A DNA stretch of 43,498 nucleotides from Planctomycetota bacterium. Its GTDB lineage: Bacteria > Planctomycetota > B15-G4 > JADJEK01. The notes under the pieces were generated by a model. It had not been told where the DNA came from, did not search any database, and saw only the letters and a program-made list of their open reading frames with translations. Positions 26,270 to 43,498 of this stretch are shown in pieces. A program made the position numbers and the translations under genes. The stretch lies in assembly GCA_016213895.1 (NCBI GenBank), contig JACQZJ010000142.1:1-43498 (forward strand), read 5' to 3'. Within the stretch, counting starts at the first letter, position 1. Each line of letters opens with the position of its first letter.

Positions 26270-26935
26270 TTCCTCCGTGGGCACGGGCACCACGCAGTCC
26301 ACGCCGAAGTACTGCTGCAGCGGCTCGGAGCGCTCGTCGTGGCCCGCGGCCTCGCGGCCGAGGAGCAGGGGCCTCGCCGAGCGAGAAGACGCCCAGGTCC
26401 AGCTCGTCCCGCACCCTGCGGCCGTCGAGCGAGATGGCGATCGCGCCGTAGTCCCAGCTCTTGGTCAGGCCGAGCTTCCCGCGGTAGCTCCCGGACCCGG
26501 GCACGGGCACGCGTAGCTCGATCAGATCCCCGGGCTTCGTGGCCTTGACCCAAAGGCGCGCGCCGCCGCTCCAGCGGTCGGCCGGCATGCCCTGGCGCTC
26601 GTGTTCGAGTCCCGGGCTCGCGCTCACCACGAGCAACCCCTCGGCCTCGAGCGCGCCCGCGACCACGCGCGGCGGGCCCCCGGTCTTGTTGAGCTGCACG
26701 CTCTCGAAGAGCGCCTGGTCGGGCACCACGATCTCGAGATCGAGGCGGTGCTTCCCCGCCCGAAGCGGCACGGGATCGAACGCGAAGCCGAGCAGGCGCG
26801 GGAAGCCCAAGGTGCGCAGCACCACCACCTGCTCGCCCTCGTGCTGCAGGACCTGCCGCCGAGGCGCGCCAAGACGATCGGCCCGTCGTGCTGGAGAAGC
26901 GCGGTGAAGTAGAGCGCGAACAGGCCTTCCTCCCG
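26270..26935 (-). pseudogene. GH172/DUF2961-like gene, C-terminal fragment with frameshifts
   Basis: Reading on the minus strand, EEGLFALYFTALLQHDGPIV, then in another frame VLQHEGEQVVVLRT through GLTKSWDYGAIAISLDGRRV, then in a third frame HDERSEPLQQYFGVDC. This follows the C-terminal 270 residues of the intact enzyme at 34252-36774 almost residue for residue. There are at least two frameshifts (near 26865 and 26350). About 16 residues are also missing between the DELDL and DLGVF segments, consistent with deletion between short repeats. The first 550 residues of the protein are absent. It cannot be functional. Confidence 0.85.
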
Positions 26936-26998
26936 CGCCGCGGCCGCGTGAGCCCGACCCTCCCCGTCGAGGGTCTCCCGCCGACGTGCGCGCGACCA
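26934..26998 (+). other. lptD-like sequence scrap at a junction
   Basis: Positions 26934-26958 match lptD 20701-20725 exactly over 25 bases, and similarity continues to about 26998. The translation [17 protein letters not shown] resembles Lpt[18 protein letters not shown]. The scrap sits between the GH172 pseudogene and the transposase tail. Confidence 0.5.
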
Positions 26999-28690: not shown

Positions 28691-28926
28691 GAACCGGACG
28701 CGGTGGCCGGCGGCGAGGATCGCGCCCAGGCCGCAGTGCTCGGCCTCGCGGGCGACCTGCCTGGAGCCCTCCTGGCGAACGATTCGGAATCTCCGGATAG
28801 TTCCGCAGGCCGGTCGAGTGCCCCCACCGCGCCGCACACCCACTTGGTGGACACGCCAGGCGTACCGCCGGTGGCGGCGGGAACAGCCGGAACGCGGCAT
28901 CACGCCCCCTCCAGCACGCAACCCTC

Positions 28927-28958
28927 TTGACACCCGCCTGGCCTCCTGCTGCGATTCT
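28927..28958 (+). promoter_or_regulatory. promoter-like block of sigma locus 1
   Basis: TTGACA (28927-28932) follows GCAACCCTC, with TGCGAT 17 bases later and GATTCT after 20. The same elements with the same spacing precede sigma locus 2 (38459-38490), and the distance from TTGACA to the start codon is 96 bases in both. The nearby GCAACC/GGAACC resembles ECF -35 elements, so either a housekeeping or an autoregulated promoter is possible. Confidence 0.55.
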
Positions 28959-28972
28959 CCTACTGGGACACG

Positions 28973-28990
28973 GCGCCTTCAGGGAGGCGC
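28973..28990 (+). other. 5'-leader hairpin of sigma locus 1
   Basis: GCGCCT (28973-28978) pairs perfectly with AGGCGC (28985-28990) around a six-base loop, 33 bases before the sigma-factor ATG. A comparable hairpin sits at 38502-38517 in the second locus. Confidence 0.45.
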
Positions 28991-29022
28991 TGGCCCCATG
29001 AGCGAAGGAGAGGCTGCCTGGG

Positions 29023-29742
29023 ATGGACGCTCAGCAAGAGGATCACGACCGCCTGCCCGAGGAACCGGACGGCATCCAGGTCGTGCTCAACTCTCTCAAG
29101 CGCCTGGAGAAGGCCCCACGCATCGATCCGCGCCGCGCCGCGGACCCGGACCACCTCGCGGACGTCCTCCTCGATCACGCCGACCACTTCGACGGCACCC
29201 GTTTCCTCTACTTGCTCATGGCATTGCAGGTCGAGCGCTTTGACGAGCTGGCCAGGGTAATGTGCGAGCGCGAGTACCTGATGCTTGACGCGCGCGGCCT
29301 CGCCGAGGAAGCGATCGTGAGCGTGTACACTGGCTACGTCGACGGCACGCGGCAGGTGCCGTTCCGCGCCTGGGCCAGGCAGATCATCCGCCGCGTCACG
29401 AGGCGCGCGTGCAATGACCCGGAGCTCGCCCCGTTCCACCGAGACGGCGGCAGCCCCGCCGAGCAAGTGGTCACGGCGATCCTCGCCGACAAGGTCAACA
29501 AGCTCGACTTCGACTCGCGCCGCCTCATTTGGCTCGCCTGGGTCGAGAAGCTGCCGCTCTCGGACGTCGCGCGCGAGACCGGAGTGCCGTTCGAGCGCGC
29601 GGAGTGGCTGCTTGCTTCGGTGGCCGAGTCCGCCCACGCCGCCGTCAAGGACCTGCTCCTCGGCGGCCGCCCGCACGGCGAGAAGAAGGACCGGAACGAT
29701 CCCTGGAACCTCGCGGGACTGGAGGGCGCCGATGGACGCTGA
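29023..29742 (+). CDS. ECF-like sigma factor, locus 1
   Basis: A 239-residue protein. Residues about 60-135 carry a sigma-region-2-like helix set (RFLYLLMALQVERFDELARV, then VPFRAWARQIIRRVTRR), and residues about 170-215 a region-4-like helix-turn-helix (LIWLAWVEKLPLSDVARETG, then PFERAEWLLASV). The N-terminal 55 residues (LPEEPDGIQVVLNSLKRL) are an extra segment not found in standard ECF factors; a polar tail follows region 4. It should direct RNA polymerase to a small regulon, probably including its own operon. It overlaps the partner gene by 11 bases, exactly as in the second copy at 38555, which has the same length. Confidence 0.75.
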   Translation: MDAQQEDHDRLPEEPDGIQVVLNSLKRLEKAPRIDPRRAADPDHLADVLLDHADHFDGTRFLYLLMALQVERFDELARVMCEREYLMLDARGLAEEAIVSVYTGYVDGTRQVPFRAWARQIIRRVTRRACNDPELAPFHRDGGSPAEQVVTAILADKVNKLDFDSRRLIWLAWVEKLPLSDVARETGVPFERAEWLLASVAESAHAAVKDLLLGGRPHGEKKDRNDPWNLAGLEGADGR

Positions 29743-30751
29743 ACCAGTCCCCGTGGCGATGAAGGACTTGCTCCGGCGGCTTCCCGAGCTGCTCGCAGGG
29801 TCCGAGCCGGTCCTGAGTCGGCCGAAGGTCCGCGAGTACTTGAAGCAGGATCCCGCCGCCGGCGCTCTCATCACGGTCATCGCCGAGCTGGCCCGGGCCA
29901 TGAGCGAAGGCTCGGAGCTCGTCCGCGCTCTGCCCCGAGCCACGGTGCGCTCTCTCGCCAAGCCCATCGAGACGGCCCGCCGCTACTTCAAGAAGGAGCT
30001 GGTGGACCTGCTCTTCGACATCGGGCTGGCGGAGTTCGAGCAGGTCACCAACGGCATGGGGATGTCCTTCCCTTCGCCGAACACCGGCAGGGCTCTCTTC
30101 CCTCGCGGCGCGTCCCGCAAGCGCGTGGTCCTCAGCGTGGCCGACGCACTCGAGATCGATCTTGAGTCTTGCCTGTCCGCAAGCGGTTTCTCCTCCTCTG
30201 ACCTCGGCGGCTTCTTTTCGTCCGAGCAGGCCTCCCTGTCCAGAGTGACACGACTCATGGGTGCCTGCGATACTCTTATCCCCGGGCTCGATGGCGTACA
30301 GTTCTTCACCGTTCTCACGCCCGAGTTGGTAGGACAGCCTGGTCGTTCGTCTTCGTGGCTGGACTACGTTCGTTCGGCTTCGACTCCGTACTGCAAGCAT
30401 GCCGGTCTCTTGCAGGCAGCGCACTCGTACTCAGCGGACGGGGAATACCAGATGGCCCGGCGGCTCGATGAGTTGGCCCTGCGCCATCATCCCACGTCGG
30501 TGATGGCCCCCTACCTGAGCGCTCTGCACGCCGCGCTTGCTGGAGACGTGTCGGTCCTGCAGAGCAGGCTAGCGGACTGGCTGCATTCGCTCGGAGCCCT
30601 GCCTGGCGCCGAGAGTCTGCCCGCGCGGCTATTCCACGAGGATCGGGCCCTGTGGAGCAAAGTCCGCGTGCGCGACCGGACCGCTTTCGATCGAGCCGTC
30701 TCGCACCTGCCAGAGGACCTCGCCGGCAGGATTCAGGAGACTCTGGCATGA
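29732..30751 (+). CDS. sigma-partner protein, locus 1, unknown family
   Basis: A 339-residue soluble protein. The N-terminus MDAEPVPVAMKDLLRRLPEL and a LSRPKVREYLKQDP stretch are shared with the second copy. The middle is helical; the C-terminal third has a TPR-like look (HAGLLQAAHSYSADGEYQMA, then LRHHPTSVMAPYLSALHAAL). There is no membrane segment, signal peptide, or zinc-binding anti-sigma (ZAS) motif. Its fixed position directly after the sigma gene, with an 11-base overlap, suggests an anti-sigma or co-regulator function. It overlaps the next ORF by 4 bases. No named family is recognised. Confidence 0.65.
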   Translation: MDAEPVPVAMKDLLRRLPELLAGSEPVLSRPKVREYLKQDPAAGALITVIAELARAMSEGSELVRALPRATVRSLAKPIETARRYFKKELVDLLFDIGLAEFEQVTNGMGMSFPSPNTGRALFPRGASRKRVVLSVADALEIDLESCLSASGFSSSDLGGFFSSEQASLSRVTRLMGACDTLIPGLDGVQFFTVLTPELVGQPGRSSSWLDYVRSASTPYCKHAGLLQAAHSYSADGEYQMARRLDELALRHHPTSVMAPYLSALHAALAGDVSVLQSRLADWLHSLGALPGAESLPARLFHEDRALWSKVRVRDRTAFDRAVSHLPEDLAGRIQETLA

Positions 30752-30942
30752 AGAAGTTCCTCCTCCTCGTGGTTCTGGCCGTGCTGCTGCCGGACGCGCA
30801 AGGTCTCGTCAGGCCAAGAACGTCCAACGCGCCCCGGCCTGGCCTCTCGATCGGAGGCTCCGGAGACGTTCCTGGTAGTCCTGGTGGCGGCGCGAGAAGA
30901 CCCGGGGTTTCCAGCTCTCCCGTTCCGTCATTTCGACCGTGA
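30748..30942 (+). CDS. small secreted peptide, locus 1
   Basis: A 64-residue ORF with a clear signal peptide (MKKFLLLVVLAVLLPDAQG) and a short Gly/Pro/Ser-rich remainder. The ATG overlaps the partner stop (ATGA), and its own TGA overlaps the GTG start of the giant gene. Its counterpart in locus 2 keeps the signal peptide but almost nothing else, so coupling of translation or a leader role is as likely as a mature function. Confidence 0.55.
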   Translation: MKKFLLLVVLAVLLPDAQGLVRPRTSNAPRPGLSIGGSGDVPGSPGGGARRPGVSSSPVPSFRP

Positions 30943-33900
30943 TGTCGCCGCCGAGGCTCGATGAGCCGCCGAGAGCGGCGCGAAGCAGCCATCTCCTCGC
31001 CCTCGGCGCTGCGCTCGTCGCGCTTTCGGTGGCGGCGGCGCTCCTCGTCCACCGCGGCAGCGATCGACCGCCCGATGGTCAGCAGTCTGCCGCGGCACAA
31101 CTCCCCGTCGAGGCGGCCTCCGGGGATCGCGGGCCGGCGACAGAGAGCGATTCCGGTTCTCTCGCTCCGGCCTCCACGCCTGTCCGCGACGCCGCGGAAG
31201 ACCGGTGCCGCCTGCTCTTCCTGCTCGAGGGCAAGCCCGCTCCAGCGACAGAGATCTACATCCTGCCCTGGACCGAAGACATCCGCTCCATGGCGTCCTC
31301 GGCCACGGGCCTGCCGAAGACCCTCATTCTTCGTGAATCCACCCGGGCCGTGGCCGACGACTCCGGCGCGGCGCTGATCGCCTCGCCATCCCCACCCTTC
31401 TTCCTCGCGGCACGCGCGCCCGGCTCCGCGCCCTACGGCGTCGTCTGTGAGTCGGCCGAGGCATTTCGGTCGCTCGACCTTCCTCCCGAGCAGCACCTGG
31501 TCGGACGCGTCGTGTCCGCGGTCGAGGGCACGCTTTCGGGCGTCACCGTCCTCGCCTACCGCGCCTTCCAGGACGAGTACTACTACGACCACGTCTGCGC
31601 GGACGATCTGCGCACCGCGGGCATGTTCTTCGAGAGCCGCACCGCGCCCGCCTCGGATGGCGCCTTCGACCTCTCGGGGCTGCCGGCGTCTCGCGTGTAT
31701 GTCGCCGCCTACGGCCCGGGAACCGCGTCCGAGCGCCGCGCGGACTTCATCCTCCCCACCCAGGAGCCCTGCGAGCTGGTCCTGCGCACGACCTTGACCC
31801 TCGAAGGACACGTCCTCGAGGAAGGCACGGGCCAGCCCATCGAGGGCGCCCGTGTGTCCGCCTTCCTGCGCTCGGGCCAGCTCGGCTTTCGCGACTGCAC
31901 CGTCACCACCACGCTCGCAGGCGGCTCTTTCCAGCTTCTCGGCGTCCCGATCGCCCACGACGATCTCGGGCTCAGCGTCTTCCGCGAGGGCTACGCCGCC
32001 GTCACCCAGCGCATCGCCACCACGGAGCTCCGCGACCAGAAGGACCTCGTCTTCCTCCTGCAGCGTTCGTGCCGCGTGTCCGGCACCATCCGCTCGCGGA
32101 ACGGCCCGCCCCTTCCCAACGCCTACATCCAGGTCCACGAGCCCGCGACCCTGGACATGGTCCGCTACACGCAGGCCGATGCTGCCGGTGAGTTCGTCCT
32201 CGACTTCATCGCTTCGGGCCGCGCCTATACACTCGTCGGCTCCGCCAAGAAGCACTATTACCTCTTCCTGAAGGACACGGACCTCTCGGCGCGCGATCCC
32301 CTCGAGCTCGTGCTCGAGCCTCAGCCGACGCTACGCGGTCACGTCACCACCGAGGACTATCCCATTCGCAACGGCACGGCCCGGATCATCGAGGAGGACG
32401 ATGCGGGCAACCTCATGTTCGAAGCCAACGCGGAGATTGACCCGGATAGCGGCGACTTCCACTTCCCCGCACTTGCCGCCGGCCAATACCTTTTGGACGT
32501 TGTCGCCGACGGGCTGGCGCCCGCCCATGTTCCACAGGTGCCCGTGCTCGACGGCGCCGAACCGAACGTCATCGATGTGGCCATGACCCGGGGAGCCGTG
32601 CTGCGCGGCACGGTCCGCGCCAGGGACTCCGGGCAGCCTGTGCCCGGCGCCGAGGTGACGTTCGCCGATCGCTCCTGGCAGGGGAGCATCTGGGGCGGCC
32701 TGCCGGGCGCCGCGTGCGCCACCACGGACGGAACCGGCGCCTTCCTTCTCGAGCACGCGCCCGCGGGCTCGACCACCGTCCTCCTCGTCGACCACGAGGG
32801 CTACGCCCCGGCCAACGCCGAGATCAAGGTATCGCCCGGCCAGCCCTCCGCCCGGCTCGACGTGCTGCTCGACAGGGCCTGCTGCGTCACGGCCACGATC
32901 AGGAACGAAGAGGACCGGCGCTTTCTCGCCCTCGATGGCTATGTCCACACGGCGGATCGAAGGATACATAGCGCCATGACGACGTCTGGGGAGCTGCGCT
33001 TCGACCGCCTCCCTCCAGGCGAGGTCACGGTCCAGGCCATCATCGCTGCCGGCGTTCGCGATGACATCGACGGCTGCTCCTTCCACAAGTACCTCCGCTT
33101 GCGCCCCGGTGAGACACAGACCGTGGCTTTCACCCTGGCCGGTGGCGCACGCATCTCAGGCAGGGTTACCGGTCCCGCTCTGAGCGATTCCTTCCGCAGG
33201 TTGGCAGTGAGCGCGGCCTCCGCGGACGACCCGGTACGTTTCGATCTCTACACCGTGACTGATCACTTCTACCGCTACGTCTTGGTGGGAGTCCCCCCAG
33301 GGAGACACGTCGTCACCGTCCAGACCGAGGACTTCGGCGCTGGCTTCACCGTGTCGCGCACCGTCGATGTCCTGCCGGGCGCGGACATCCAGCTCGACTT
33401 CCACCTCCCCGTTTCGGGTCTCCGGGGCAAGGTGACGGACAGCGGCGGTACTCCCCTCGTCGGCGCCGTCATCTACGTCCGCGCCTGGGATGCCGCGCGC
33501 GACGCCTTCGACGATTCGCCGCACGGACAGATCCAGCAGACGGCGGTGTCCGACGAGTGCGGTTCCTACTTCGTCACGGGCGTGAGCCCTGGTGCGTACG
33601 CCTTCTCGGCCAAGGCCGCGGGTTGCGCCTGGGCCGAGGGCCTGTTCGAGATCCCCGACGAGGAGACGGTGGTCGAGCAGGACATCATCCTGGAGAAGGA
33701 CGGCCGCCTGGAAGTGCTCGTCTCGGATCGCGCCGGCACGCTGGTGACGGGCGCGACATGCACCGTCCAGCGCGACGGCGTGCACTACGCCACGCCGCTC
33801 ACCGCGCTCGCCGAGTCCCTGCCTGACAGGCTCGTGTTCGCGGGCGCGGCCACGGCCACCTACCGCGTGCGCGTGCGAGCCGACGGCTTCTTCCCCGCCG

Positions 33901-34244
33901 ACGAGACCGTGTCCTGCGCCTCGGGCACGACCGCGACCCTGCGAATCGCGCTGCGGCGGCCCGGCTCGCTCGCCATCGACCTCGTTGGACCCGACGGCGC
34001 GGCCGCGACGCATGCACCGGTCGAGGTCCAGGACCTCGAGAGCGGGGCGTTCGCCGGGGACTGGATCGTAGCGGGCCTGGTGACCAGCTCGACGTCATCT
34101 TCCACGACGGACGCCCACGGCGAGCTGCGCCTCGACGGCCTTCCCGAAGGCCGCTTCCGCGTGCGCGCCCTGGGCGTCGCGAAGGACGTCGACGTCCTGC
34201 CCGGCGCCCTGACCGGGCCGATCCGGCTGCAGCAGATCCCGTGA
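30939..34244 (+). CDS. giant membrane-anchored carboxypeptidase-regulatory-like repeat protein, locus 1
   Basis: An 1101-residue protein. After a short basic N-terminus comes one membrane helix (about residues 20-41, LLALGAALVALSVAAALLV), then an Ala/Pro-rich stalk, then roughly nine to ten beta-sandwich repeats of the carboxypeptidase-regulatory/CNA-B-like type. Repeat signatures include LSGVTVLAYRAF, LEGHVLEEGTGQPIEGARVS, VLRGTVRARDSGQPVPGAEV, LRGKVTDSGGTPLVGAV and closing strands such as GRLEVLVSDRAGTLV. There is no sortase motif and no catalytic residues. It should be a cell-envelope stalk or sensor. GTG 30939 or ATG 30942 starts it. It is convergent with the GH172 gene, 7 bases apart. 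Confidence 0.72.
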   Translation: MMSPPRLDEPPRAARSSHLLALGAALVALSVAAALLVHRGSDRPPDGQQSAAAQLPVEAASGDRGPATESDSGSLAPASTPVRDAAEDRCRLLFLLEGKPAPATEIYILPWTEDIRSMASSATGLPKTLILRESTRAVADDSGAALIASPSPPFFLAARAPGSAPYGVVCESAEAFRSLDLPPEQHLVGRVVSAVEGTLSGVTVLAYRAFQDEYYYDHVCADDLRTAGMFFESRTAPASDGAFDLSGLPASRVYVAAYGPGTASERRADFILPTQEPCELVLRTTLTLEGHVLEEGTGQPIEGARVSAFLRSGQLGFRDCTVTTTLAGGSFQLLGVPIAHDDLGLSVFREGYAAVTQRIATTELRDQKDLVFLLQRSCRVSGTIRSRNGPPLPNAYIQVHEPATLDMVRYTQADAAGEFVLDFIASGRAYTLVGSAKKHYYLFLKDTDLSARDPLELVLEPQPTLRGHVTTEDYPIRNGTARIIEEDDAGNLMFEANAEIDPDSGDFHFPALAAGQYLLDVVADGLAPAHVPQVPVLDGAEPNVIDVAMTRGAVLRGTVRARDSGQPVPGAEVTFADRSWQGSIWGGLPGAACATTDGTGAFLLEHAPAGSTTVLLVDHEGYAPANAEIKVSPGQPSARLDVLLDRACCVTATIRNEEDRRFLALDGYVHTADRRIHSAMTTSGELRFDRLPPGEVTVQAIIAAGVRDDIDGCSFHKYLRLRPGETQTVAFTLAGGARISGRVTGPALSDSFRRLAVSAASADDPVRFDLYTVTDHFYRYVLVGVPPGRHVVTVQTEDFGAGFTVSRTVDVLPGADIQLDFHLPVSGLRGKVTDSGGTPLVGAVIYVRAWDAARDAFDDSPHGQIQQTAVSDECGSYFVTGVSPGAYAFSAKAAGCAWAEGLFEIPDEETVVEQDIILEKDGRLEVLVSDRAGTLVTGATCTVQRDGVHYATPLTALAESLPDRLVFAGAATATYRVRVRADGFFPADETVSCASGTTATLRIALRRPGSLAIDLVGPDGAAATHAPVEVQDLESGAFAGDWIVAGLVTSSTSSSTTDAHGELRLDGLPEGRFRVRALGVAKDVDVLPGALTGPIRLQQIP

Positions 34245-34251
34245 GCCCGCC

Positions 34252-36774
34252 CTACTTCTCCTCCGCCTCCTCGGGCATGAGCAGCACGTAGTCCACGCCG
34301 AAGTAGTAGTAGGGCGGCTCGGACTTGTCGTTGCGGCCCACGGCCTGGAGGCTGAGCAGCGCCGCGTCTCCGAGGAAGAACACGCCGAGGTCGACTTGCG
34401 GCGCGAGGTCCGAGGCCCGCTCAGCCTCGTTGAAGAGGTCCAGCTCCTCGATGACCCGGCGGCCGTCGAGCGAGATCGCGATCGTGCCATAGTCCCAGCT
34501 CTTCGTCAGACCGAGCTTCACGCGATAGCTCCCGGTCGCGGGCGTTGACACGCGGAGCTCGATCAGGTCCCCGGGCTTCGTCGCCTTGACCCAGAGGTGC
34601 GCGCCGCCGCTCCAGCGGTCGGCCGGCATGCCCTGCCGCTCGTGCTCGAGTCCCGGGCTCGCGCTCACCACGAGCAGCCCCTCGGCTTCGACCGCGCCCG
34701 GGACGATTCGCGGCGGGCCGCCGGTCTTCCGGAGCTGCACGGTCTCGAAGAGCGCCTGGCCGGGCACCACGATCTCGAGCTCGAGGTGGTGCTTCCCCGC
34801 CCGAAGCGGCACAGGATCGAACCCGAAGCCGAGGAGGCGCGGGGAGCCCGGGGTGCGCAGCACCACCACCTGCTCGCCCTCGCGCTGCAGGACCTGCCCG
34901 CCGAGCCGCGCCGAGAGGATCGGCCCGTCGTGCCGGAGAAGCGCGGTGATGTAGAGCGCGTACAGGCCCTCCTCGGGCGCCGCCACCTCGAGCGCCAGGC
35001 GCTCGGCCGCGCCCGCGCCGCTCCACGAGAGCAGCGGTCCGCCGCGCGAAAGCGCGCTCTCCTCGGCGCCCACGTCGCCGGCGCTCGCCTGGGGCGCGAG
35101 CTCGGTCGCGGGCCGGCGCGTGGCCTCGCCCTCCTCGCTCCACACGCCTTCCCCCCAGTTCGGGATCGCGGGCACGAGCAGCTCCCTCGGCTGCAGGCGC
35201 CGGTGGTCGTCGATCGCCCCGGGCCGCGCGTACCACCACGCGATCCGCCCATAGGACAGCGGCTCGACCGGCACGTGGCTCCACAGCTCGAGGAAGAGCG
35301 CGGCCGAGCGCTCGAACGGGATGTCATCCAGGATGAAGAAGCGGTGATTGCTGACGTAGCCGCAGTTCCCCGGCCCGGAGTCGAGCGGCTGCCCGCAGTA
35401 GGGATGGTCGAACAGGTCGATGCGGCTCCAGGAGTAGTTGTAGAAGTCCTCCGAGCCCGTGCCGAAGGTGGACGGCGCGCTCTCGCCGTCGATCAGGATC
35501 TTCTCGTCGCCCTCGCCCCACCAGTTACCGGAGCGATCGGGCGCGGGCAGGGGGTTCATCAGCATGCACGCCGCGCCCACCAGGCGGCCCTGTCCGATCG
35601 CCACGAGATACGGCAGATCGCAGGGCGCGGCGCCGGCCTGCGCGCGCAGCTCGTGGTCCACGCGCCAGCGCGCGCGGAAGTAGAGGCTCTGCTCGTCGAA
35701 GGGGCGCGGCCGCGTCGCGATCTCGGCGCGGCCCTGAACCGTCGCGCCGCTCAGGTTCTCGAGGCGCACGCGCGCCTCCTTCTGGAACGGCATGGGAAAG
35801 CGGCAGATCATCGTGCCGTCGCGCCGCACCGTCATGGGCACGGCCTCGAGGGGGTTCAGGCCGACGCCCGAGCCGAAGAAGTCGCCGGCCGGCGCCTCGA
35901 CCTGCGGCTCCTCAGCGCCGTCGTAGTTAATGGTAAGCAGCGTGCCGCGCAGCGCGGCGGCGCGGTCGGGTCCGGACAGGTTGAGCGCGAACCAGCAGAT
36001 CTCGCCCGCCGCCCCGCCGCCGGCCGTCCTCTCGGCCGTTTCCCCGGGCGCAAGCGCGATCTCCCAGACTTCCGCTCCTTCGGCCGCCGCGTCCTCTGCC
36101 GCCGCGCGCTCCGCGAGCCAGGCCCGGACCTGCTCGGAGAGCCCTGGCGCTGCGAAGCTCTCGACGCGCGCGCCCTTCTCGTAGCAGCGCACCTGCAGGT
36201 GGTAGAAGTGCACCTCGTTCAGGCTCCCCTCCCAGGTCACGCGCAGGCCTTCCGCGAAGGGGATGGGCAGGTAGTCGGCGTCCTGCTGCACGAAGGGATC
36301 GCGGCCGAGCCACGCGCTCGCCGCGGACATGGCGCCGAAGTGCTCGGAGCGCCGCGCCAGGAACGCGTAGGCGTCCCCCTCGTAGAGCGGCTCACTTGCA
36401 CCGTCGAGGAAGACGCGCAGGATCCCGCCCATGCCGGCTGACCAGCCGCGCACGATCGCGCCCGGCCCGTCCACCTCGGCCACGAGGTAGAGGCCGATGC
36501 CCGACTCGTCCGGCGCGCGCAGCACGCCGAGGAACGCCGGCAGAGGCTCCCCGCCGAAGCCGTCGGCGTTCGCGAACCAGGACGGCGCGTCGCGGTTCGT
36601 GGAGCGGCGGTCGAAGCTCGAGAACTGCACCGTGCGATAGGACGGCGCGGGCAGGCGGCCGAGGCGCTCGAGATCGGCCATCTCGTCAAGGAGCGTGGCC
36701 GTGGTGACCGGGGCGGCCTCGCCGCCGCTCTGGCCGAGGGCGAGGCTAAGAAGCAGGACTGCGGCGTTCAGCAT
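34252..36774 (-). CDS. secreted GH172 (DUF2961)-type glycosidase
   Basis: An 840-residue exported protein with a signal peptide (LNAAVLLLSLALGQSGGEA). The core has the DUF2961 signatures SYRTVQFSSFDRRS, then LYFRARWRVDHEL and FGTGSEDFYNYSWSRIDL with conserved Glu and Asp. Known GH172 members are fructofuranosidases and arabinofuranosidases; the glycan here is not determined. Residues about 570-820 form an added carbohydrate-binding-like beta region, the part also present as a pseudogene at 26270. ATG has GGAAGGAA upstream. It follows the Nmad3 gene by 27 bases on the same strand. Confidence 0.82.
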   Translation of the reverse strand: MLNAAVLLLSLALGQSGGEAAPVTTATLLDEMADLERLGRLPAPSYRTVQFSSFDRRSTNRDAPSWFANADGFGGEPLPAFLGVLRAPDESGIGLYLVAEVDGPGAIVRGWSAGMGGILRVFLDGASEPLYEGDAYAFLARRSEHFGAMSAASAWLGRDPFVQQDADYLPIPFAEGLRVTWEGSLNEVHFYHLQVRCYEKGARVESFAAPGLSEQVRAWLAERAAAEDAAAEGAEVWEIALAPGETAERTAGGGAAGEICWFALNLSGPDRAAALRGTLLTINYDGAEEPQVEAPAGDFFGSGVGLNPLEAVPMTVRRDGTMICRFPMPFQKEARVRLENLSGATVQGRAEIATRPRPFDEQSLYFRARWRVDHELRAQAGAAPCDLPYLVAIGQGRLVGAACMLMNPLPAPDRSGNWWGEGDEKILIDGESAPSTFGTGSEDFYNYSWSRIDLFDHPYCGQPLDSGPGNCGYVSNHRFFILDDIPFERSAALFLELWSHVPVEPLSYGRIAWWYARPGAIDDHRRLQPRELLVPAIPNWGEGVWSEEGEATRRPATELAPQASAGDVGAEESALSRGGPLLSWSGAGAAERLALEVAAPEEGLYALYITALLRHDGPILSARLGGQVLQREGEQVVVLRTPGSPRLLGFGFDPVPLRAGKHHLELEIVVPGQALFETVQLRKTGGPPRIVPGAVEAEGLLVVSASPGLEHERQGMPADRWSGGAHLWVKATKPGDLIELRVSTPATGSYRVKLGLTKSWDYGTIAISLDGRRVIEELDLFNEAERASDLAPQVDLGVFFLGDAALLSLQAVGRNDKSEPPYYYFGVDYVLLMPEEAEEK

Positions 36775-36801
36775 GGCGGACGTTCCTTCCAGTCCGCTCT
36801 T

Positions 36802-37701
36802 CTACCACGTGGCGCGCGTTCGATGAACGGGCTCGAGGGGCGTTGCCGCCGCGCCGCACGCGCCCGCGGCGAACAGCTCGGCCAGCCACGGCCGCGCCTC
36901 GGGGTAGTGATCGACGTCAAGCACGAACTCCTGCCCGCGGGCCACGGAGCGGAGGAGCAGGCGCCCGTCCTGCATTGCCCAGCGCTCGGAATCCTCGTGA
37001 TACCCGAGCGCGGGACGGCCGCGGCGAGGAGCGAACCACGTCGGAACTTCCCAGACGCTGCGGGTCTTGCCCGCCGCGCTGAGGCGCAGTCGCTCGTGGT
37101 AGCGGGCGAACGCACCGCCACCCGGCACGATGCACGGCATTCCTTGCAGCTGCATCTGCTTCGACGCCACGTACAGGGTGTTGCGGTCCCTGCCCGGCTG
37201 CCGCACATGCGGATGCGCCGCGGCCCAGCGCGGCGTGCGCGCGCTCGGAATGGCGAGAACGCGGCCCACGCGCAGCCAGCCGAAGATCACATGCTTGCCC
37301 GCAGCGCCTGGCACGAAGCGAAGTCTCCCTGCGCGCTCCTCGACCTCCCGGAACCAGCCGAAGAAGAGAAAGAGGTCTCCCTTGCCGACTCGCGCGCGGT
37401 CCAGCACGCCCTGCGCGGCGCCTGCCTGGCCGAATGCTGGCCTCCAGCGCAGTGCGCGAGGAAGCGCCTCGGCCCGAAGATCTGGATCGAGGTGCGCGCC
37501 GCAGCGCGAGCGGACCTTCCCCTTCGTCAGCTCCTCGACGATGCGGCCCACGGGCCGTCCGCTCCATGCGATCTCGGCGTAGCTCGTTTCGCTGCCCCAC
37601 TCAGGGATGGGGAGCGACAGCATCGAGCCGTCCGGGAAAACGGGGCTCGGCGTGCCGCCGGCGGAGGAATCGAAGCCCTTTCGGCTGAGGATCAGGCGCA
37701 C
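36802..37701 (-). CDS. Nmad3 (nucleotide-modification-associated domain 3) protein
   Basis: A 299-residue protein starting at GTG 37701, which has GGAGG exactly 5 bases before it; a longer ATG start at 37734 is less likely. LILSRKGFDSSAGGTPSPVF, then MLSLPIPEWGSETSYAEIAW, and CGAHLDPDLR are signatures of the Nmad3 family. The last part contains WEVPTWFAP and a C-terminal W...L helix. Nmad domains were predicted from genome context to act in DNA or nucleotide base modification; the reaction is not established. It overlaps Nmad2 by 10 bases. Confidence 0.78.
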   Translation of the reverse strand: MRLILSRKGFDSSAGGTPSPVFPDGSMLSLPIPEWGSETSYAEIAWSGRPVGRIVEELTKGKVRSRCGAHLDPDLRAEALPRALRWRPAFGQAGAAQGVLDRARVGKGDLFLFFGWFREVEERAGRLRFVPGAAGKHVIFGWLRVGRVLAIPSARTPRWAAAHPHVRQPGRDRNTLYVASKQMQLQGMPCIVPGGGAFARYHERLRLSAAGKTRSVWEVPTWFAPRRGRPALGYHEDSERWAMQDGRLLLRSVARGQEFVLDVDHYPEARPWLAELFAAGACGAAATPLEPVHRTRATW

Positions 37702-38348
37702 GAGGGCCTCCAGGAGTCGTCCTCCGCAGACCATCCGGCCGGCGGACCCAGGACTCCGCGTTCCTTGCGGGCGAAGAAGTCGTGAACTGCCGCGATCTGC
37801 TCGGGCGAGAAGCGGCAGCGGTGCCCCCGGCCGGTTCGCAGGAACTGAAGGCGTCTCGGCAGCACCGGGCCCTGGCCTCCGAAGTAGACGAAGTCACGGG
37901 ACACCAGCACGGCATTGGCGCCCGTGTCGCGGCGCCTGGCGCTCTGGCTTTCCTGATCTCTCTTGTGATCCCAGTGGGCCGATCGGAGCTGAACGAAGCC
38001 GCCGGCGCCGTCCGGCCGGTAGATGTTGTCGCCGCGCCGCCGCCTCGCGAGCGGCGACTCCCATTCCGGGCGCTTCGCTCGGAACCGCGGATCGGCCCAG
38101 TACTGCTCGAACGAGAGCCGCTCGTCCACTCGCATCACGTAGACGATCCGTTCGCATCGCCGGGAAAGGCCGATGATCACGTCTCCGGGCGCCGCGGCGC
38201 CGCGGATGCGCGGCTTGCAGCACGCCAGGGTGCACCAGCCGTGGAAGGGGTTGGGAGCGAAGCCCCCGTCTTGGACGACCACGTAGGAGAAGACGCGAGA
38301 GGGATCCCTCGTCGTTCTTCCGGGGCGGCTCACTCTCTTCCAGGACAT
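37692..38348 (-). CDS. Nmad2 (nucleotide-modification-associated domain 2) protein
   Basis: A 218-residue protein with VVVQDGGFAPNPFHGWCTLA followed by CCKPRIR, GDVIIGLSRRCERIVYVMRV, LSFEQYWADPRFRAKRPEW and RRRGDNIYRP, all typical of the Nmad2 family. A later FVYFGGQGPVLP segment and a C-terminal helical part complete it. The family is linked to nucleotide modification by gene context only. It heads a minus-strand run with Nmad3 and the GH172 gene and lies between the two sigma loci. Confidence 0.78.
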   Translation of the reverse strand: MSWKRVSRPGRTTRDPSRVFSYVVVQDGGFAPNPFHGWCTLACCKPRIRGAAAPGDVIIGLSRRCERIVYVMRVDERLSFEQYWADPRFRAKRPEWESPLARRRRGDNIYRPDGAGGFVQLRSAHWDHKRDQESQSARRRDTGANAVLVSRDFVYFGGQGPVLPRRLQFLRTGRGHRCRFSPEQIAAVHDFFARKERGVLGPPAGWSAEDDSWRPSCA

Positions 38349-38458
38349 CCCTGACTACCCGCTCGGCATCATGCCGCCTGACCCTACGGGATGCGCCTCC
38401 CTACGCCAAGGCCGATGGGGGCGGCGCGCACTTGCGGCGACCACCCGCACGGAACCCC

Positions 38459-38490
38459 TTGACAGGCGCCCGCGACCCTGTTTCGATCTT
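38459..38490 (+). promoter_or_regulatory. promoter-like block of sigma locus 2
   Basis: TTGACA (38459-38464) preceded by GGAACCCC, with TTCGAT 17 bases later and GATCTT after 20. It matches the block at 28927-28958 in spacing and in distance (96 bases) to the start codon. Confidence 0.55.
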
Positions 38491-38501
38491 GCTACACGGA
38501 G

Positions 38502-38517
38502 GCCCCGCCTTCGGGGC
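38502..38517 (+). other. 5'-leader hairpin of sigma locus 2
   Basis: GCCCCG (38502-38507) pairs with CGGGGC (38512-38517) around a CCTT loop. It lies at nearly the same distance from the start codon as the hairpin in locus 1, although the sequence differs, suggesting conserved structure. Confidence 0.45.
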
Positions 38518-38554
38518 GGCGCCGGACCCTGCGGTGGAGGATAGACAGCCTGGG

Positions 38555-39274
38555 ATGAGCGCGGACCGCGACGACCGCGACCGCTTGCCGGAGGAGCCGG
38601 ACGGCATCCAGGTCGTGCTCAACGCTTTGCGGCGCCTGAAGAAGCCGCCGCGGATCGCCCCCCGCTACGCCGCTGACCCCGACCACATCGCGGATGTGCT
38701 CCTCGACCGCGCTGACCAATTCGACGGCACGCGCTTCCTCTACCTTCTCACGGCGCTCCAGCTTGGGCGCTTCGATGAACTGGCCCGGGAAATCTGCGAG
38801 CGCAAGTACCTGATGCTCGACACCGAGGGCCTGGCTGAGGAGGCCATCGTGGCCATCTACACCGGCTACGTGGATGGCTCGCGCCAGGTGCCATTTCGAT
38901 CCTGGGCCAGGCAGATCATGCACTGGGTCGCGAAGCGCGCCTGCCACGATCCGGACCTGGCGGCCTTCCGTTCGAACGGCGGCAGCCGCGCCGAGCAGTT
39001 GGTGATGTCGATCCTCGCCGAAAAGGTCAACCAACTCGACCTCGACACGCGACGCCTGGTCTGGCTCGCGTGGATGGAGAAGCTGACCCTGCCTCAGATC
39101 GCGCGCGAGACGGCCGTGCCGTTCGAGCGCGTCGAGTGGATCCTCGCTTCGGTGATGGAATCCGCGCAGCGCGAGGTCAAGGACCTGCTGCTCGGCAGGA
39201 TCCCGTTCGGCGAGGAAGGCGGTCCCGGCGAGCGCGAGGACAGCGCGGGGCTGGAGGGCGCCGATGAACTCTGA
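38555..39274 (+). CDS. ECF-like sigma factor, locus 2
   Basis: A 239-residue paralogue of the protein at 29023, co-linear from end to end. It keeps the N-terminal LPEEPDGIQVVLNALRRL segment, the region-2-like helices (FDELAREICERKYLMLDTEG; VPFRSWARQIMHWVAKR) and the region-4-like helix-turn-helix (LVWLAWMEKLTLPQIARETA; PFERVEWILASV). Differences concentrate in the linker and C-terminal tail. It may act on the same or a diverged promoter; cross-talk is possible because the promoter-like blocks are alike. It overlaps its partner gene by 11 bases. Confidence 0.75.
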   Translation: MSADRDDRDRLPEEPDGIQVVLNALRRLKKPPRIAPRYAADPDHIADVLLDRADQFDGTRFLYLLTALQLGRFDELAREICERKYLMLDTEGLAEEAIVAIYTGYVDGSRQVPFRSWARQIMHWVAKRACHDPDLAAFRSNGGSRAEQLVMSILAEKVNQLDLDTRRLVWLAWMEKLTLPQIARETAVPFERVEWILASVMESAQREVKDLLLGRIPFGEEGGPGEREDSAGLEGADEL

Positions 39275-40280
39275 GCCCGTGCCCGTGCCCGTGAGGGACC
39301 TGCTCTGGCGCCTGCCCGAGCTGCTCGAGGGACCCGAGCCGGTCTTGAGCCGGCCCAAGGTGCGCGAGTACCTGAAGAGCGATCCGGATGCTGCCATGGC
39401 CATCGCCGTGGTTGCCGAGATGTCTCGCACCATGAGAGAAGCTTCGGCGCTCCTCCGCTCCCGCCCTCCCGCCGGCCGCCGCTCCCCTGCCCTGGCCATC
39501 GAGACGGCCCGCCGCTGCTTCAGGAAGCAGCTCGTGGATCTTCTCTTCGAGCTCGGCATCGTGGAGTTCTGGCGAGCGACCCAGCAGGCGGGAGTGCCGT
39601 TCTTCTCTGACGCTCTGCGGGATGTGCCTGCAACGAAGCCCCCCGCCGAAGACGTCCTGCCGCGCATCGCCGATGTGCTCGGCATGAACCTGGCCTCCAT
39701 CTGGCCAGCGCAAGAAGCCGGGGGTCCTCTGCCCGAAGTCCTCCGCGCGGGAGAGTCACCATCCCTGGCCCACGCTGAGCGCCTGATGAACGCATGCGAC
39801 GCGCTCATCCCGGACCTCCCCGGCGTACGCTTCTTCCGCCTCCTCATCCCGCAGCTCCAGGGAAGGCCCGTCCTGCCGTCTGCCTGGCTCGACTTCGTTC
39901 GCACCGCGGATGGGGCGTTCGACAAGCACGCCGCGCTCATCCAGGCGGGGCACCTTCTGTTCCTCGCGGGTGACCTACGCGCGTCCGTGCAGGCGAATGA
40001 ACTCGCTCTGCGGCACTGCCCGAGTTCCCCCTTCCCGCCCTATTTCATTGCGCTGTATGGTGCCCTCGCGGGAGAGGAGGCAGCGCTCGCCGATCGCTTG
40101 TGTCGCTGGTCGGAGTGCATCCGTGCTTCCAGCTCTCTGCTGTTGGCCGCGGTGACGCAGGTGCGTCACGACCGTTTGCTCTGGAAGAGGCTCGCTGTCC
40201 GCTCGGCGAAACCGGCCTCTCATGCCCTGTCGCGCTTGCCTCCGGCAATCGCGAACGCCCTCGACGAGGTCCTCCGATGA
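39264..40280 (+). CDS. sigma-partner protein, locus 2, unknown family
   Basis: A 338-residue paralogue of the partner at 29732. MNSEPVPVPVRDLLWRLPEL, GPEPVLSRPKVREYLKSDP and the helical middle (IETARRCFRKQLVDLLFELG) align closely. The C-terminal third again looks TPR-like (AALIQAGHLLFLAGDLRASV; LRHCPSSPFPPYFIALYGAL). No transmembrane segment or zinc motif is present. It starts inside the sigma gene and overlaps the small ORF by 3-4 bases. Confidence 0.65.
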   Translation: MNSEPVPVPVRDLLWRLPELLEGPEPVLSRPKVREYLKSDPDAAMAIAVVAEMSRTMREASALLRSRPPAGRRSPALAIETARRCFRKQLVDLLFELGIVEFWRATQQAGVPFFSDALRDVPATKPPAEDVLPRIADVLGMNLASIWPAQEAGGPLPEVLRAGESPSLAHAERLMNACDALIPDLPGVRFFRLLIPQLQGRPVLPSAWLDFVRTADGAFDKHAALIQAGHLLFLAGDLRASVQANELALRHCPSSPFPPYFIALYGALAGEEAALADRLCRWSECIRASSSLLLAAVTQVRHDRLLWKRLAVRSAKPASHALSRLPPAIANALDEVLR

Positions 40281-40360
40281 TGGCGCGCCGCTTCTTCTTC
40301 CTCGTCCTGCTGCTGCTCTTCCTCGCTCCGGCGCCGGCTCAGTCCGAGGGACTCCGGTAG
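40277..40360 (+). CDS. micro-ORF, signal peptide only, locus 2
   Basis: A 27-residue ORF (MMARRFFFLVLLLLFLAPAP, then AQSEGLR and TAG). It corresponds to the small secreted peptide of locus 1 but stops right after the signal peptide; its downstream sequence retains a weak likeness to the longer version. The ATG overlaps the partner stop. It may be a leader peptide, or a truncated gene. Confidence 0.45.
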   Translation: MMARRFFFLVLLLLFLAPAPAQSEGLR

Positions 40361-40415
40361 GCGGGGGCGCCCGAACAAACGCCCCGCTGAAGAACCCCGC
40401 CCCCTGAACCCACCG

Positions 40416-43400
40416 TGACTCCGCTGAACTCGCTGCGCAAGCTGGGCGTCACGGGGCTTCTGCTGGCCGCGCTGATCCTCGTCGGTTTCTTGGCCGTAAG
40501 GCCGTTCATCTCCGGGGACAGGCGGCCCGAGGAACCGGCGCCTTCCGTTGCGCCGCGGGTTGAACCCAGCGTAGCGCTCGCTCCAGCCGCTGACGAATCG
40601 GATGATCAGGCGAGCGCGGCGCCCGCGCGCGCGGCTGCCGCCACCTCCCGCACCTTCCGCTTCCTCTTGAACGACCAGCCCGCCGCCGACACGGAGTTCG
40701 CCCTCCTTCCCTGGGACGACGAGATCGCCCTCGCCGCGCGCTCGCACATCGGCCTGCCCAAGAGCCTCATCGCTCGCCTGGCCCAGCGCTTCGTCACCGG
40801 CGCCTCGGGCGAGGCCTCGGTGGACGTTCCGTCCGTACCCTTCTTCCTGGCCGCTCGCGCGCCCGGATCCGCGCCCTTTGGCCAGCGCTTCGACCGCCTT
40901 CTCGAGAGCGTCTCGCTTGCGCTACCCCCGGAACAGCGCCTGCACGGCATCGTCGTCAACAGCATCGACGAGCCCGTCAGCGGCGTGACCGTGCTTGCGC
41001 ACCGCGCCTTCCAGGATGAGTACGTCTACGACCGCATCCGCGACGACGATCAGCGCACCGCGGGCATGTTCTTCGAGAGCATCGCCCCGGCGCTCGCCGG
41101 CGGCTCGTTCGACGTGGGTGGGCTCCCGGCCGCCCGCGTCTTCGTCATCGCCCTCGCTGGCCAGAAGACCTCCGAGCGCCGCGTCGACTTCGTGCTGCCC
41201 TCCGAGGAGGTGTGCGAGCTGATGCTGCGCGACGCCATCACCTGGAGGGGGCTCGTGGCAGACGAGGCCACGGGGCAGCCGCTCGAAGGAGCACAAGTCT
41301 CGTCGTTCGAGCGCAAGGGCGACCTCAGCATGTTCCAGCACGTCGTGACCACGACCGATGCTCTCGGCCGCTTCGAGCTCGCTGGCGTGCCCGCCGCGGC
41401 AGACCTGTTCGGCTTGTGCGTCTCTCGCAGGGACTACGCCACCTACATGCGGCGCCTCGAACCGACCGTCGTCGAGCGCAGCGAGGACCTGTTCGTGCCC
41501 CTGAAGAGGGCCTGCTCCGTTGCAGGCGTGGTGCGCTCGCTGAAGGGAGAGCCTCTCGCCGGCGTGTGGGTGCAGGTGCATCAGGATGGCACCTTCGACC
41601 TCGTGGACTACACGCAGACCGACGCCAGCGGCCGCTTCGCCATCGAGTTCGTCGCCCCTGGCGAGCGCTACGCGCTGGTCGGCTCGGGCCAGGGCTACCA
41701 CATCGCCATTCAGGAGGGAGTCGAGATCTGCTCCGTGTTCGAACACGAGATCCTGCTCGACCCCCTGCCTTCGCTCCGCGGGCGCGTGCTCGTCGAGGAC
41801 TACCCGGTTGAGCGCGGCATCGCGCGGGTCTTCCAAGAGGACCGTGCGGGCAATCGTCTCCTCCAAGCCACGGCCGACGTCGCTCCGGCGACCGGCGAAT
41901 TTGAGTTCCCCTTCCTGGACGCAGGCCGCTACGTGCTCGATGTCTCCGCCTCCTGCTATGCGCCCCTTCGCGTCGCCGATGTGCCGGTCCAGGCCGAGAC
42001 GGATATAAACTCCATCGAGGTGACCTTACGGCGCGGCGCAACCCTGCGCGGCACGGTGTTCGCGCGCGGCACTCGCCAGGTGATCATCGGCGCCAAGGTG
42101 ACGCTTGGCGATGAGTTGTTGGACGGCGACATCGTCGGCCCCCTTCCCGGGGCGCCCGCCGCCGTGACGGACGGCAACGGCGAGTATCTCCTCGAGAACG
42201 TACCGGTGGGCACAGCCAGGAAGCTCTTCGTAGACCACCCCGACTACAGCGTCGGCACGGCCGTGCTGTTCCTGGAGGAGGGCTCGCTCTCTGCCCGCCT
42301 GGACGTCGAGCTGACGCGTGCGTGCCTCGTCACGGCAACGGTCACGGATGAACTGGGCCGCCGGTTCATGTCCATCGACGGCACTGCCTACACTTCCCAG
42401 GGAGAGCAGCGCGACATCTGGGACTCGTCGGGCATCCTCCGCTTCGATCGACTGCCGCCGGGGAATACCGCCATACAGGCTGGTGTCTCGGCGGGAACGC
42501 GCGCGGATCTCCGTGACCGGCGCATGGCCCAGCGGTTCGAGCTGGCCGAGGGGGAAACGCGCGCGCTCACCTTCTCCCTGGCCGGCGGCGGCCGCGTCCA
42601 CGGCCGCCTCGTCGGACCAGCCGCAAGCCCCCTCTTTCGCCGGCTCTGGGTCCTGTCCTCGCTGGCGGAACACCCCGACCTCGTCGACCAGGCCACGTCT
42701 CCCGACCATCACGGGTACTACGTCCTCTCGGGAATCGCCCCGGGCCGGCGCGTCGTGTACGTGGAACCAGCCGATGCAGGCACAGGTTTCCGCGTGTCCA
42801 GGACAGTGGACCTGCTGCCAGGAAGCGACATCAAGCTGGACTTCCCGCTGCCCCTTTCCGGCATGCAGGGCACGGTGTCCGCGCGCGGCGGCGGTCCTGT
42901 GGTCGGCGCGCGAATTCAGATGCTGCCGCGCGACCCGGCGGCGAGCGCGCCCGCCGAGACCCCCTACCCCTTCCGCCTCGATACGCGCTCGAACGAGTCG
43001 GGCGCGTACCAGATCGTCGGCGCCCAGCCCGGATCCTACGCCTTCTCCGTCAAGGCCGCGGGCTTCGCCTGCGAGGAGGGGATGATCCAGATCGCCGACG
43101 AGGAGGCCGTTGTCCAGCAGAACATCGTCCTCGAGAAGGAGGCGCGCCTCGAGGTCGTGCTCTCGGACCGGGCCGGCTCGCCCGTCCTTTCCACGGCGTG
43201 CACCGTGGAGCGCGCCGACGGCGCCTCGCTCCAGCCCCTGCGCGCGCTCCCGGAACTCCTCCCGGACAGACTCGTCTTCGAGGGCGCCGCTACCGCCCTC
43301 TATCGCGCGCGGGTGCGGGCCGAGGGCTTCTTCCCCGCCGAGCAGACCGCCTCCTGCACATCCGGTACGACCACCACCCTGCCGATCACCCTGCGCCAGC

Positions 43401-43498
43401 CGGGCTCGCTCGTCATCCGCCTCGTCTCGCCCGCGGCCCTGCCCGCGGCGCAGGTCGCGCTCGACGTCCTCGATCTCGAGACCGGCGCGCGCGCCGCG
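40416..43498 (+). CDS. giant membrane-anchored carboxypeptidase-regulatory-like repeat protein, locus 2 (partial)
   Basis: The frame is open from GTG 40416 to the window end, more than 1020 codons with no stop. After a short N-terminus there is one membrane helix (GVTGLLLAALILVGFLAV, about residues 11-28), an acidic Ala/Pro-rich stalk, then repeats aligned one for one with the protein at 30939: PFFLAARAPGSAPFG, VSGVTVLAHRAFQDEYVYD, LVADEATGQPLEGAQVSSF, LRGRVLVEDYPVERG, TLRGTVFARGTRQVIIGAKV, and LEVVLSDRAGSPV. Repeat cores are conserved, while loops and the stalk have diverged. It is separated from the micro-ORF by 55 bases, unlike the overlap in locus 1. The C-terminus lies outside the window. 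Confidence 0.7.

Follow-up and report, generated by a model that had tools for sequence, protein, structure and literature searches.

Twin loci joining a degenerate sigma-like protein and a candidate anti-sigma-type partner to a stalk cassette in a Planctomycetota genome

The window analyzed in this work is a stretch of 43,498 nucleotides (nt) from a Planctomycetota bacterium, which comprises the entire contig JACQZJ010000142.1 (C79) of a genome assembled in 218 contigs (5.5 Mb). From position 28,927 onward it contains two tandem loci, each consisting of a gene for a protein resembling the extracytoplasmic function (ECF) sigma factors, a gene for a partner protein, a micro open reading frame (micro-ORF) and a gene for a giant stalk protein. 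A preliminary description had pointed out their shared gene order, the matching product lengths (239 and 239 amino acids (aa) for the sigma-like proteins, 339 and 338 aa for the partners), an 11-nt overlap between sigma-like and partner genes and an ATGA overlap between partner gene and micro-ORF; all of this was confirmed from the sequence in both loci. The features are as follows:

28927..28955, plus strand: sigma70-type promoter of locus 1 (TTGACA, 17 nt, TGCGAT), a sequence match
29023..29742, plus strand: sigma-like protein of locus 1, 239 aa, ECF fold with degenerate region 2.2 and recognition helix
29732..30751, plus strand: partner of locus 1, 339 aa, N-terminus (about residues 1-75) anti-sigma-domain-like, C-terminus (about 165-339) like tetratricopeptide repeats (TPR)
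30748..30942, plus strand: micro-ORF of locus 1, 64 aa, signal peptide and Gly/Ser/Pro-rich tail
30942..34244, plus strand: giant of locus 1, 1100 aa, 17-residue N-terminal tail, one transmembrane (TM) helix and about 9 CarboxypepD_reg repeats
38459..38487, plus strand: sigma70-type promoter of locus 2 (TTGACA, 17 nt, TTCGAT), a sequence match
38555..39274, plus strand: sigma-like protein of locus 2, 239 aa
39264..40280, plus strand: partner of locus 2, 338 aa
40277..40360, plus strand: micro-ORF of locus 2, 27 aa, tail lost (shorter than C44 and other copies)
40415..43498, plus strand: giant of locus 2, incomplete, with 1028 aa encoded before the contig ends

The first giant starts with the ATG at 30942, and the GTG at 30939 is a possible alternative. 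The second giant is incomplete because the window is the whole of C79, the end of which cuts the gene; no exact end overlap of C79 with contigs C44, C124 or C85 was found that would extend it.

Five partner genes were recovered from the same genome, along with six to eight sigma-like genes, remnants included, and some ten giants that are closely related. The complete order of sigma-like gene, partner, micro-ORF and giant is found at five loci: two on C79 and one each on C112, on C154, where the contig end truncates the giant, and on C142, where the giant is in two frames. The order of partner, micro-ORF and giant is also present in a second species (G001:C394). In the five pairs, the sigma-like proteins measure 235-239 aa (238 aa at C112) and the partners 338-339 aa; the genes of each pair overlap by 11, 11, 11, 11 and 8 nt (11 nt at C112), and the partner gene overlaps the micro-ORF by 4 nt in all five, as ATGA in four loci and GTGA in one. 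Repeated order, lengths and overlaps at three further pairs confirm that the twin arrangement is not due to chance. All five complete partner genes directly follow and overlap a sigma-like gene, and no partner gene was seen without one adjoining it, the G001 copy being cut by a contig edge. The partner gene was detected in 2 of 392 genomes of the phylum and is restricted to one genus; no relatives outside this genus were found in the 392 genomes or by a GTDB motif scan, and such a scan likewise returned no relatives of the sigma-like protein. The family alignment is shallow (five paralogues) and the genome assembly is fragmented and of metagenome type. The C142 giant falls into two frames in this assembly (L032:8184-10757 and C142:19609-20691), by either a frameshift or an assembly error.

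The micro-ORF and the giant are the constant core of these loci (10 of 10). The micro-ORF, present in all 10 loci with a readable upstream region, encodes a signal peptide followed by a Gly-rich tail and measures 62-81 aa; the exception is the 27-aa copy at locus 2 (C79b), a signal peptide from which the Gly-rich tail has been lost. Between two species, the ratio of nonsynonymous to synonymous substitutions (dN/dS) of an orthologous micro-ORF pair is 0.32, which like the values for the giant given below indicates purifying selection. The giant carries an N-terminal single-pass TM helix and tandem PF13620 (CarboxypepD_reg) beta-sandwich repeats. The preliminary description had recognized both the signal peptide and the single-pass architecture with extracellular beta-sandwich repeats, and both features hold. 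In C25, C44 and G001:C401, the C-terminus of the sigma-like protein, or nearly all of it, is gone together with almost all of the partner; a short partner tail is left 5' of the micro-ORF, while the micro-ORF and giant are intact and constrained. The giant has a dN/dS of 0.35 for C25/G001:C401, which are without the regulators, versus 0.30 for a locus with them. The two ends of L015 (contig C44, 4748 nt) are identical over 141 nt, so that the contig closes into a cycle in the assembly graph; besides a promoter, a 29-aa sigma remnant and a micro-ORF it holds a complete giant with 90% identity to giant 2, and it may represent a tandem array or a circular element.

Sigma matches of the first protein in Pfam and NCBIfam are weak. 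A profile-profile comparison, however, matched it to a family of membrane-tethered ECF sigmas described below (P = 5.5e-8, spanning sigma2-sigma4), and both sigma2 and sigma4 are present, with no sigma3. The AlphaFold2 (AF2) model has a predicted local distance difference test score (pLDDT) of 83, and with this model Foldseek ranks 1-20 were all ECF sigmas or sigma-anti-sigma complexes, including PhyR-NepR (3t0y) at rank 19. The probabilities of these matches were 0.97-1.00, but the E-values were just 0.003-0.06 and the TM-scores low, so that probability and consistency bear the weight of the fold call; the arrangement of sigma2 relative to sigma4 in the model probably differs from that in the matched structures. 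Profile, model and structural matches all show that the protein has an ECF sigma fold, as had been supposed at the outset.

The contacts expected of a working sigma factor are degenerate. In an alignment with 24 ECFs of the same and related genomes, the Gln of region 2.2 is present in 24/24 controls and is replaced by Glu or Asp in 6/6 family members, which have also all lost the Asp three residues ahead of it. We take these Asp and Gln positions to be the counterparts of residues with an important part in core binding by Escherichia coli sigma70. The recognition helix for the -35 element has a net charge of -1 to 0 in the family, versus +4.0 (standard deviation 1.2, minimum +1) in 39 controls. 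Between the twin genes, dN is 0.20 and dS 0.64 (dN/dS 0.31), which indicates purifying selection and therefore a maintained protein, not a pseudogene. No TM helix was found in the window sigma-like protein tested, no receiver-domain match in its 239 aa, and no NepR or intact ECF gene within the loci. In PhyR, a correct ECF structure goes together with degeneration in these same regions, the contacts to promoter and core, and the protein titrates an anti-sigma factor (PMC8103513). Judged from sequence, degenerate contacts kept under purifying selection appear to be the signature of such a PhyR-type sigma mimic rather than of a working sigma; because the residues for gene activation are apparently lost, the sigma-like protein is more likely the partner's decoy than a gene switch. 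In G003, of the same family and another genus, a lone sigma-like gene (L063:201-812) adjoins genes for an RpoD-type sigma and a TrpG-like protein, and its recognition helix is likewise degenerate.

The partner is predicted to be soluble, and its C-terminal half is TPR-like by both profile (E 1e-8) and fold. Residues 1-75 align without gaps with zf-HC2-type anti-sigma domains from 14 related genomes, with the zinc ligands lost: the HLxxCPxC of the zf-HC2 domains is YLxxDPxA or similar in the partner. On a zf-HC2 profile with the zinc columns masked, the N-terminal 75 columns of the partner score 21.7; permuted-column controls give 9.2 +/- 1.9 with a maximum of 17.3 (n=300), and among the remaining windows of 75 columns from the partner and sigma-like proteins, leaving aside those that overlap the N-terminus, none exceeds 14.2. 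As single sequences, the five partner N-termini fall within the top 5% of 728 windows and are not uniquely best. The partner had been described as lacking anti-sigma motifs; this stands for the zinc motif, Hx3Cx2C being absent from the partner copies, and gives way for the N-terminus, which is anti-sigma-like once the zinc columns are masked. About 44% of class I anti-sigma domains (ASDIs) are without a zinc motif, Hx3Cx2C occurring in about 56% and not being required (PMC7406223). These comparisons are suggestive of a zinc-less anti-sigma domain of class I. In 10/10 paralogue pairs the N-terminus is better conserved than the C-terminal half, as expected if the N-terminus binds the conserved sigma-like protein and the C-terminus is free to vary.

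A sigma70-like site is located 96-116 nt 5' of the sigma-like start in all nine paralogous loci examined, which belong to three sequence clades. The C79/C44/G001 clade contains TTGACA-17-(TGCGAT/TTCGAT/TCCGAT), C142/C25 contain TTGAC(A/G)-17-TGGAAT, and C112/C154/C105 contain the weaker TTGxxx-17/18-(G/C)ACAAT. The locus 1 site is the best sigma70-like pair, 96 nt 5' of the start, and none of 300 shuffles was as good; 2 of 300 were as good for locus 2. No ECF-type site, searched as a simple GAAC...CGT pattern, was found in the nine loci, although an autoregulated ECF promoter is not an absolute requirement. Promoters of sigma70 type rather than ECF type weaken the idea that the sigma-like protein drives the giant.

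The same genome contains other sigma factors that are physically joined to large ectodomains. By cross-matching sigma and CarboxypepD_reg matches within the genome, 12 ECF sigmas were found in which the sigma part is followed, some 35 residues later, by a single TM helix and then by a large ectodomain:

L039:3-2777, tethered ECF
L103:2373-5507, tethered ECF
L104:2149-5724, tethered ECF
L105:2324-5599, tethered ECF
L106:1719-4787, tethered ECF
L107:4194-6914, tethered ECF
L108:4392-7718, tethered ECF
L109:4345-8256, tethered ECF
L110:1533-4913, tethered ECF
L113:1832-3877, tethered ECF
L114:4934-7108, tethered ECF
L115:4194-6599, tethered ECF

At least 7 of the 12 have CarboxypepD_reg in frame with the sigma, and one, C202, has an FGE-sulfatase domain. 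The link between sigma factors and stalks is NEVERTHELESS real. These tethered ECFs keep the canonical Gln and a basic recognition helix. The family occurs in 66 of 294 genomes of the phylum, often with at least 9 copies, and a TM helix with a long downstream frame was present in 24/24 readable loci, a few of which had themselves gone into the profile. Previously described ECFs that extend across the membrane (SCO4117, IutY) include an anti-sigma region (PMC8999054). The tethered ECFs have only about 35 residues between sigma4 and the TM helix and thus no room for an anti-sigma domain. No description of this tethered family or of sigma/CarboxypepD_reg fusions was found in the open-access papers searched, and an earlier mention elsewhere is possible.

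Taken together, the twin loci are two members of a genus-restricted family of about ten surface-stalk cassettes, with a core of a secreted Gly-rich micro-protein and a membrane-anchored CarboxypepD_reg stalk. Five loci add an upstream overlapping pair of cytoplasmic proteins: an ECF-fold protein that appears to have lost its contacts to core RNA polymerase and the -35 element, and its partner. The partner may act as an anti-sigma-type protein, and the sigma-like protein may be its bait through physical interaction (a sigma mimic or anti-anti-sigma, like PhyR) rather than a promoter-recognition factor. The pair would then be a partner switch setting the activity of at least one genuine sigma factor, candidates for which are the C52-type ECF and the tethered ECFs; the operon, including the stalk, would be transcribed from its sigma70-type promoter and the stalk delivered to the cell surface for its putative function there. 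We hold this reading tentatively, at slightly less than even confidence. The degenerate sigma fold, the candidate zinc-less anti-sigma domain, the obligatory coupling and the sigma70 promoters favour such a mimic switch over a self-regulated sigma. Several points weigh against it. The unmasked hhalign probability of the partner N-terminus versus zf-HC2 is about 5%, which is weak in absolute terms; in a plain hidden Markov model search the partner as an anti-sigma is not distinguishable from background; and AF2 confidence is poor over this region. The operon promoter is a sequence match and not a mapped start site, and the lost consensus contacts may equally mean a changed promoter specificity. 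The orphan relative in G003 lacks both partner and stalk, and the locus encodes neither a genuine client sigma nor a switch of the phosphorylation type like the PhyR receiver domain.

A genuine divergent ECF sigma, held by a soluble anti-sigma partner and controlling the stalk operon with the giant as regulated output, would account for the ECF fold, the overlapping anti-sigma-like partner and the purifying selection, and C52, where a canonical ECF sigma takes the place of the pair ahead of the micro-ORF and giant, has just such an order. This was the role first imagined for the sigma-like protein, but it is unlikely in view of the core-binding and DNA-contact residues lost in 6/6, the sigma70-type promoter at every locus examined and the micro-ORF and stalk kept under constraint at three loci where sigma and partner are deleted. 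The persistence of stalks without the pair also opposes a second proposal, in which the stalk is an extracytoplasmic sensor and the locus a split form of a tethered sigma-TM-ectodomain, the state of the ectodomain being relayed across the membrane to partner and sigma. The 12 fusions, with CarboxypepD_reg in frame in at least 7, and the wide occurrence and constant TM helix of the tethered family speak for it; yet the cytoplasmic tails of the stand-alone giants have only 2-17 residues, leaving little for a soluble partner to touch, and the window sigma does not belong specifically to the tethered subfamily. The short tails make a direct transmembrane sensor, as the preliminary description had allowed for, unlikely in these loci, direct evidence of such a role was not found, and we consider the split-sensor arrangement improbable. 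The pair might also work outside transcription, as a cytoplasmic TPR-based accessory complex that helps to make, export or assemble the micro-protein and stalk. Degenerate sigma contacts, the TPR fold and the tight translational coupling of partner and micro-ORF fit this role, which is nevertheless distinctly improbable: family searches gave no chaperone or export family match, and three loci keep micro-ORF and stalk without the pair, although paralogues could serve in trans.

Two further genes lie between the loci:

34252..36774, minus strand: DUF2961 protein
36802..37734, minus strand: Nmad3 (nucleotide modification associated) protein, flank, syntenic in the sister species

The DUF2961 protein is probably a flank outside the module. 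Locus 1 is preceded by decayed DUF2961 debris, a counterpart to the intact DUF2961 gene that precedes locus 2 (window 26287-26962 and 34252-38348), and the equivalent place in the sister species reads DUF2961-Nmad3-sigma, without locus 1; this suggests that a unit was duplicated or lost. A simple recent tandem duplication is not a clean origin for the twins, because dS is higher between the twin sigmas (0.64) than in the sister-species pair (0.37); the flanking debris nevertheless points to unit duplication. In paralogue pairs, the sigma-like dS (0.64, 0.22) is lower than the partner dS (1.35, 0.85) and the giant dS (0.92, 0.62), which suggests that gene conversion has acted at the loci's 5' end (window 28908-30037 versus 38441-39569).

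If the mimic switch is real, mimicry of sigma factors extends beyond the stress response of Alphaproteobacteria, and selection maintains a degenerate sigma paralogue, together with an anti-sigma-like partner, beside surface machinery. It is possible, though doubtful, that such a switch evolved independently of PhyR and was wired to a multi-copy stalk system, in a phylum with undescribed single-chain transmembrane transcription factors (ECF-TM-giant beta-sandwich ectodomain). The tethered single-pass ECFs may matter more than the twin loci and may merit separate study; their presence in so many genomes makes release of the tethered sigma, or its working at the membrane, directly testable.

Among known systems, PhyR-NepR-EcfG of Alphaproteobacteria also pairs a degenerate ECF-fold protein with an anti-sigma-type protein, for which the partner is a candidate here; the present loci differ in having no receiver domain, NepR homologue or genuine sigma, in the TPR-like C-terminus of the partner, and in the linked secreted micro-protein and stalk. 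ECFs with soluble ASDIs (ChrR, RsrA) share the adjoining overlapping genes and the sigma2-sigma4 protein, and perhaps also an ASDI-like N-terminus fused to a second domain, whereas here the sigma contacts and zinc ligands are lost, the sensor-like domain is of TPR type and there is no sign of autoregulation. ECF48/52/53 (SCO4117) and IutY resemble the fused relatives in this genome in placing sigma, TM helix and extracytoplasmic domain on one chain; the tethered ECFs differ by their short stretch from sigma4 to the TM helix and their ectodomain of CarboxypepD_reg repeats, and the window loci themselves are unfused. CarboxypepD_reg or Cna-B-like stalk proteins share the N-terminal TM helix and tandem PF13620 repeats of the giant, which here has as its companion a micro-protein that is conserved, secreted and Gly-rich and, at five loci, the sigma-like/partner pair as well.

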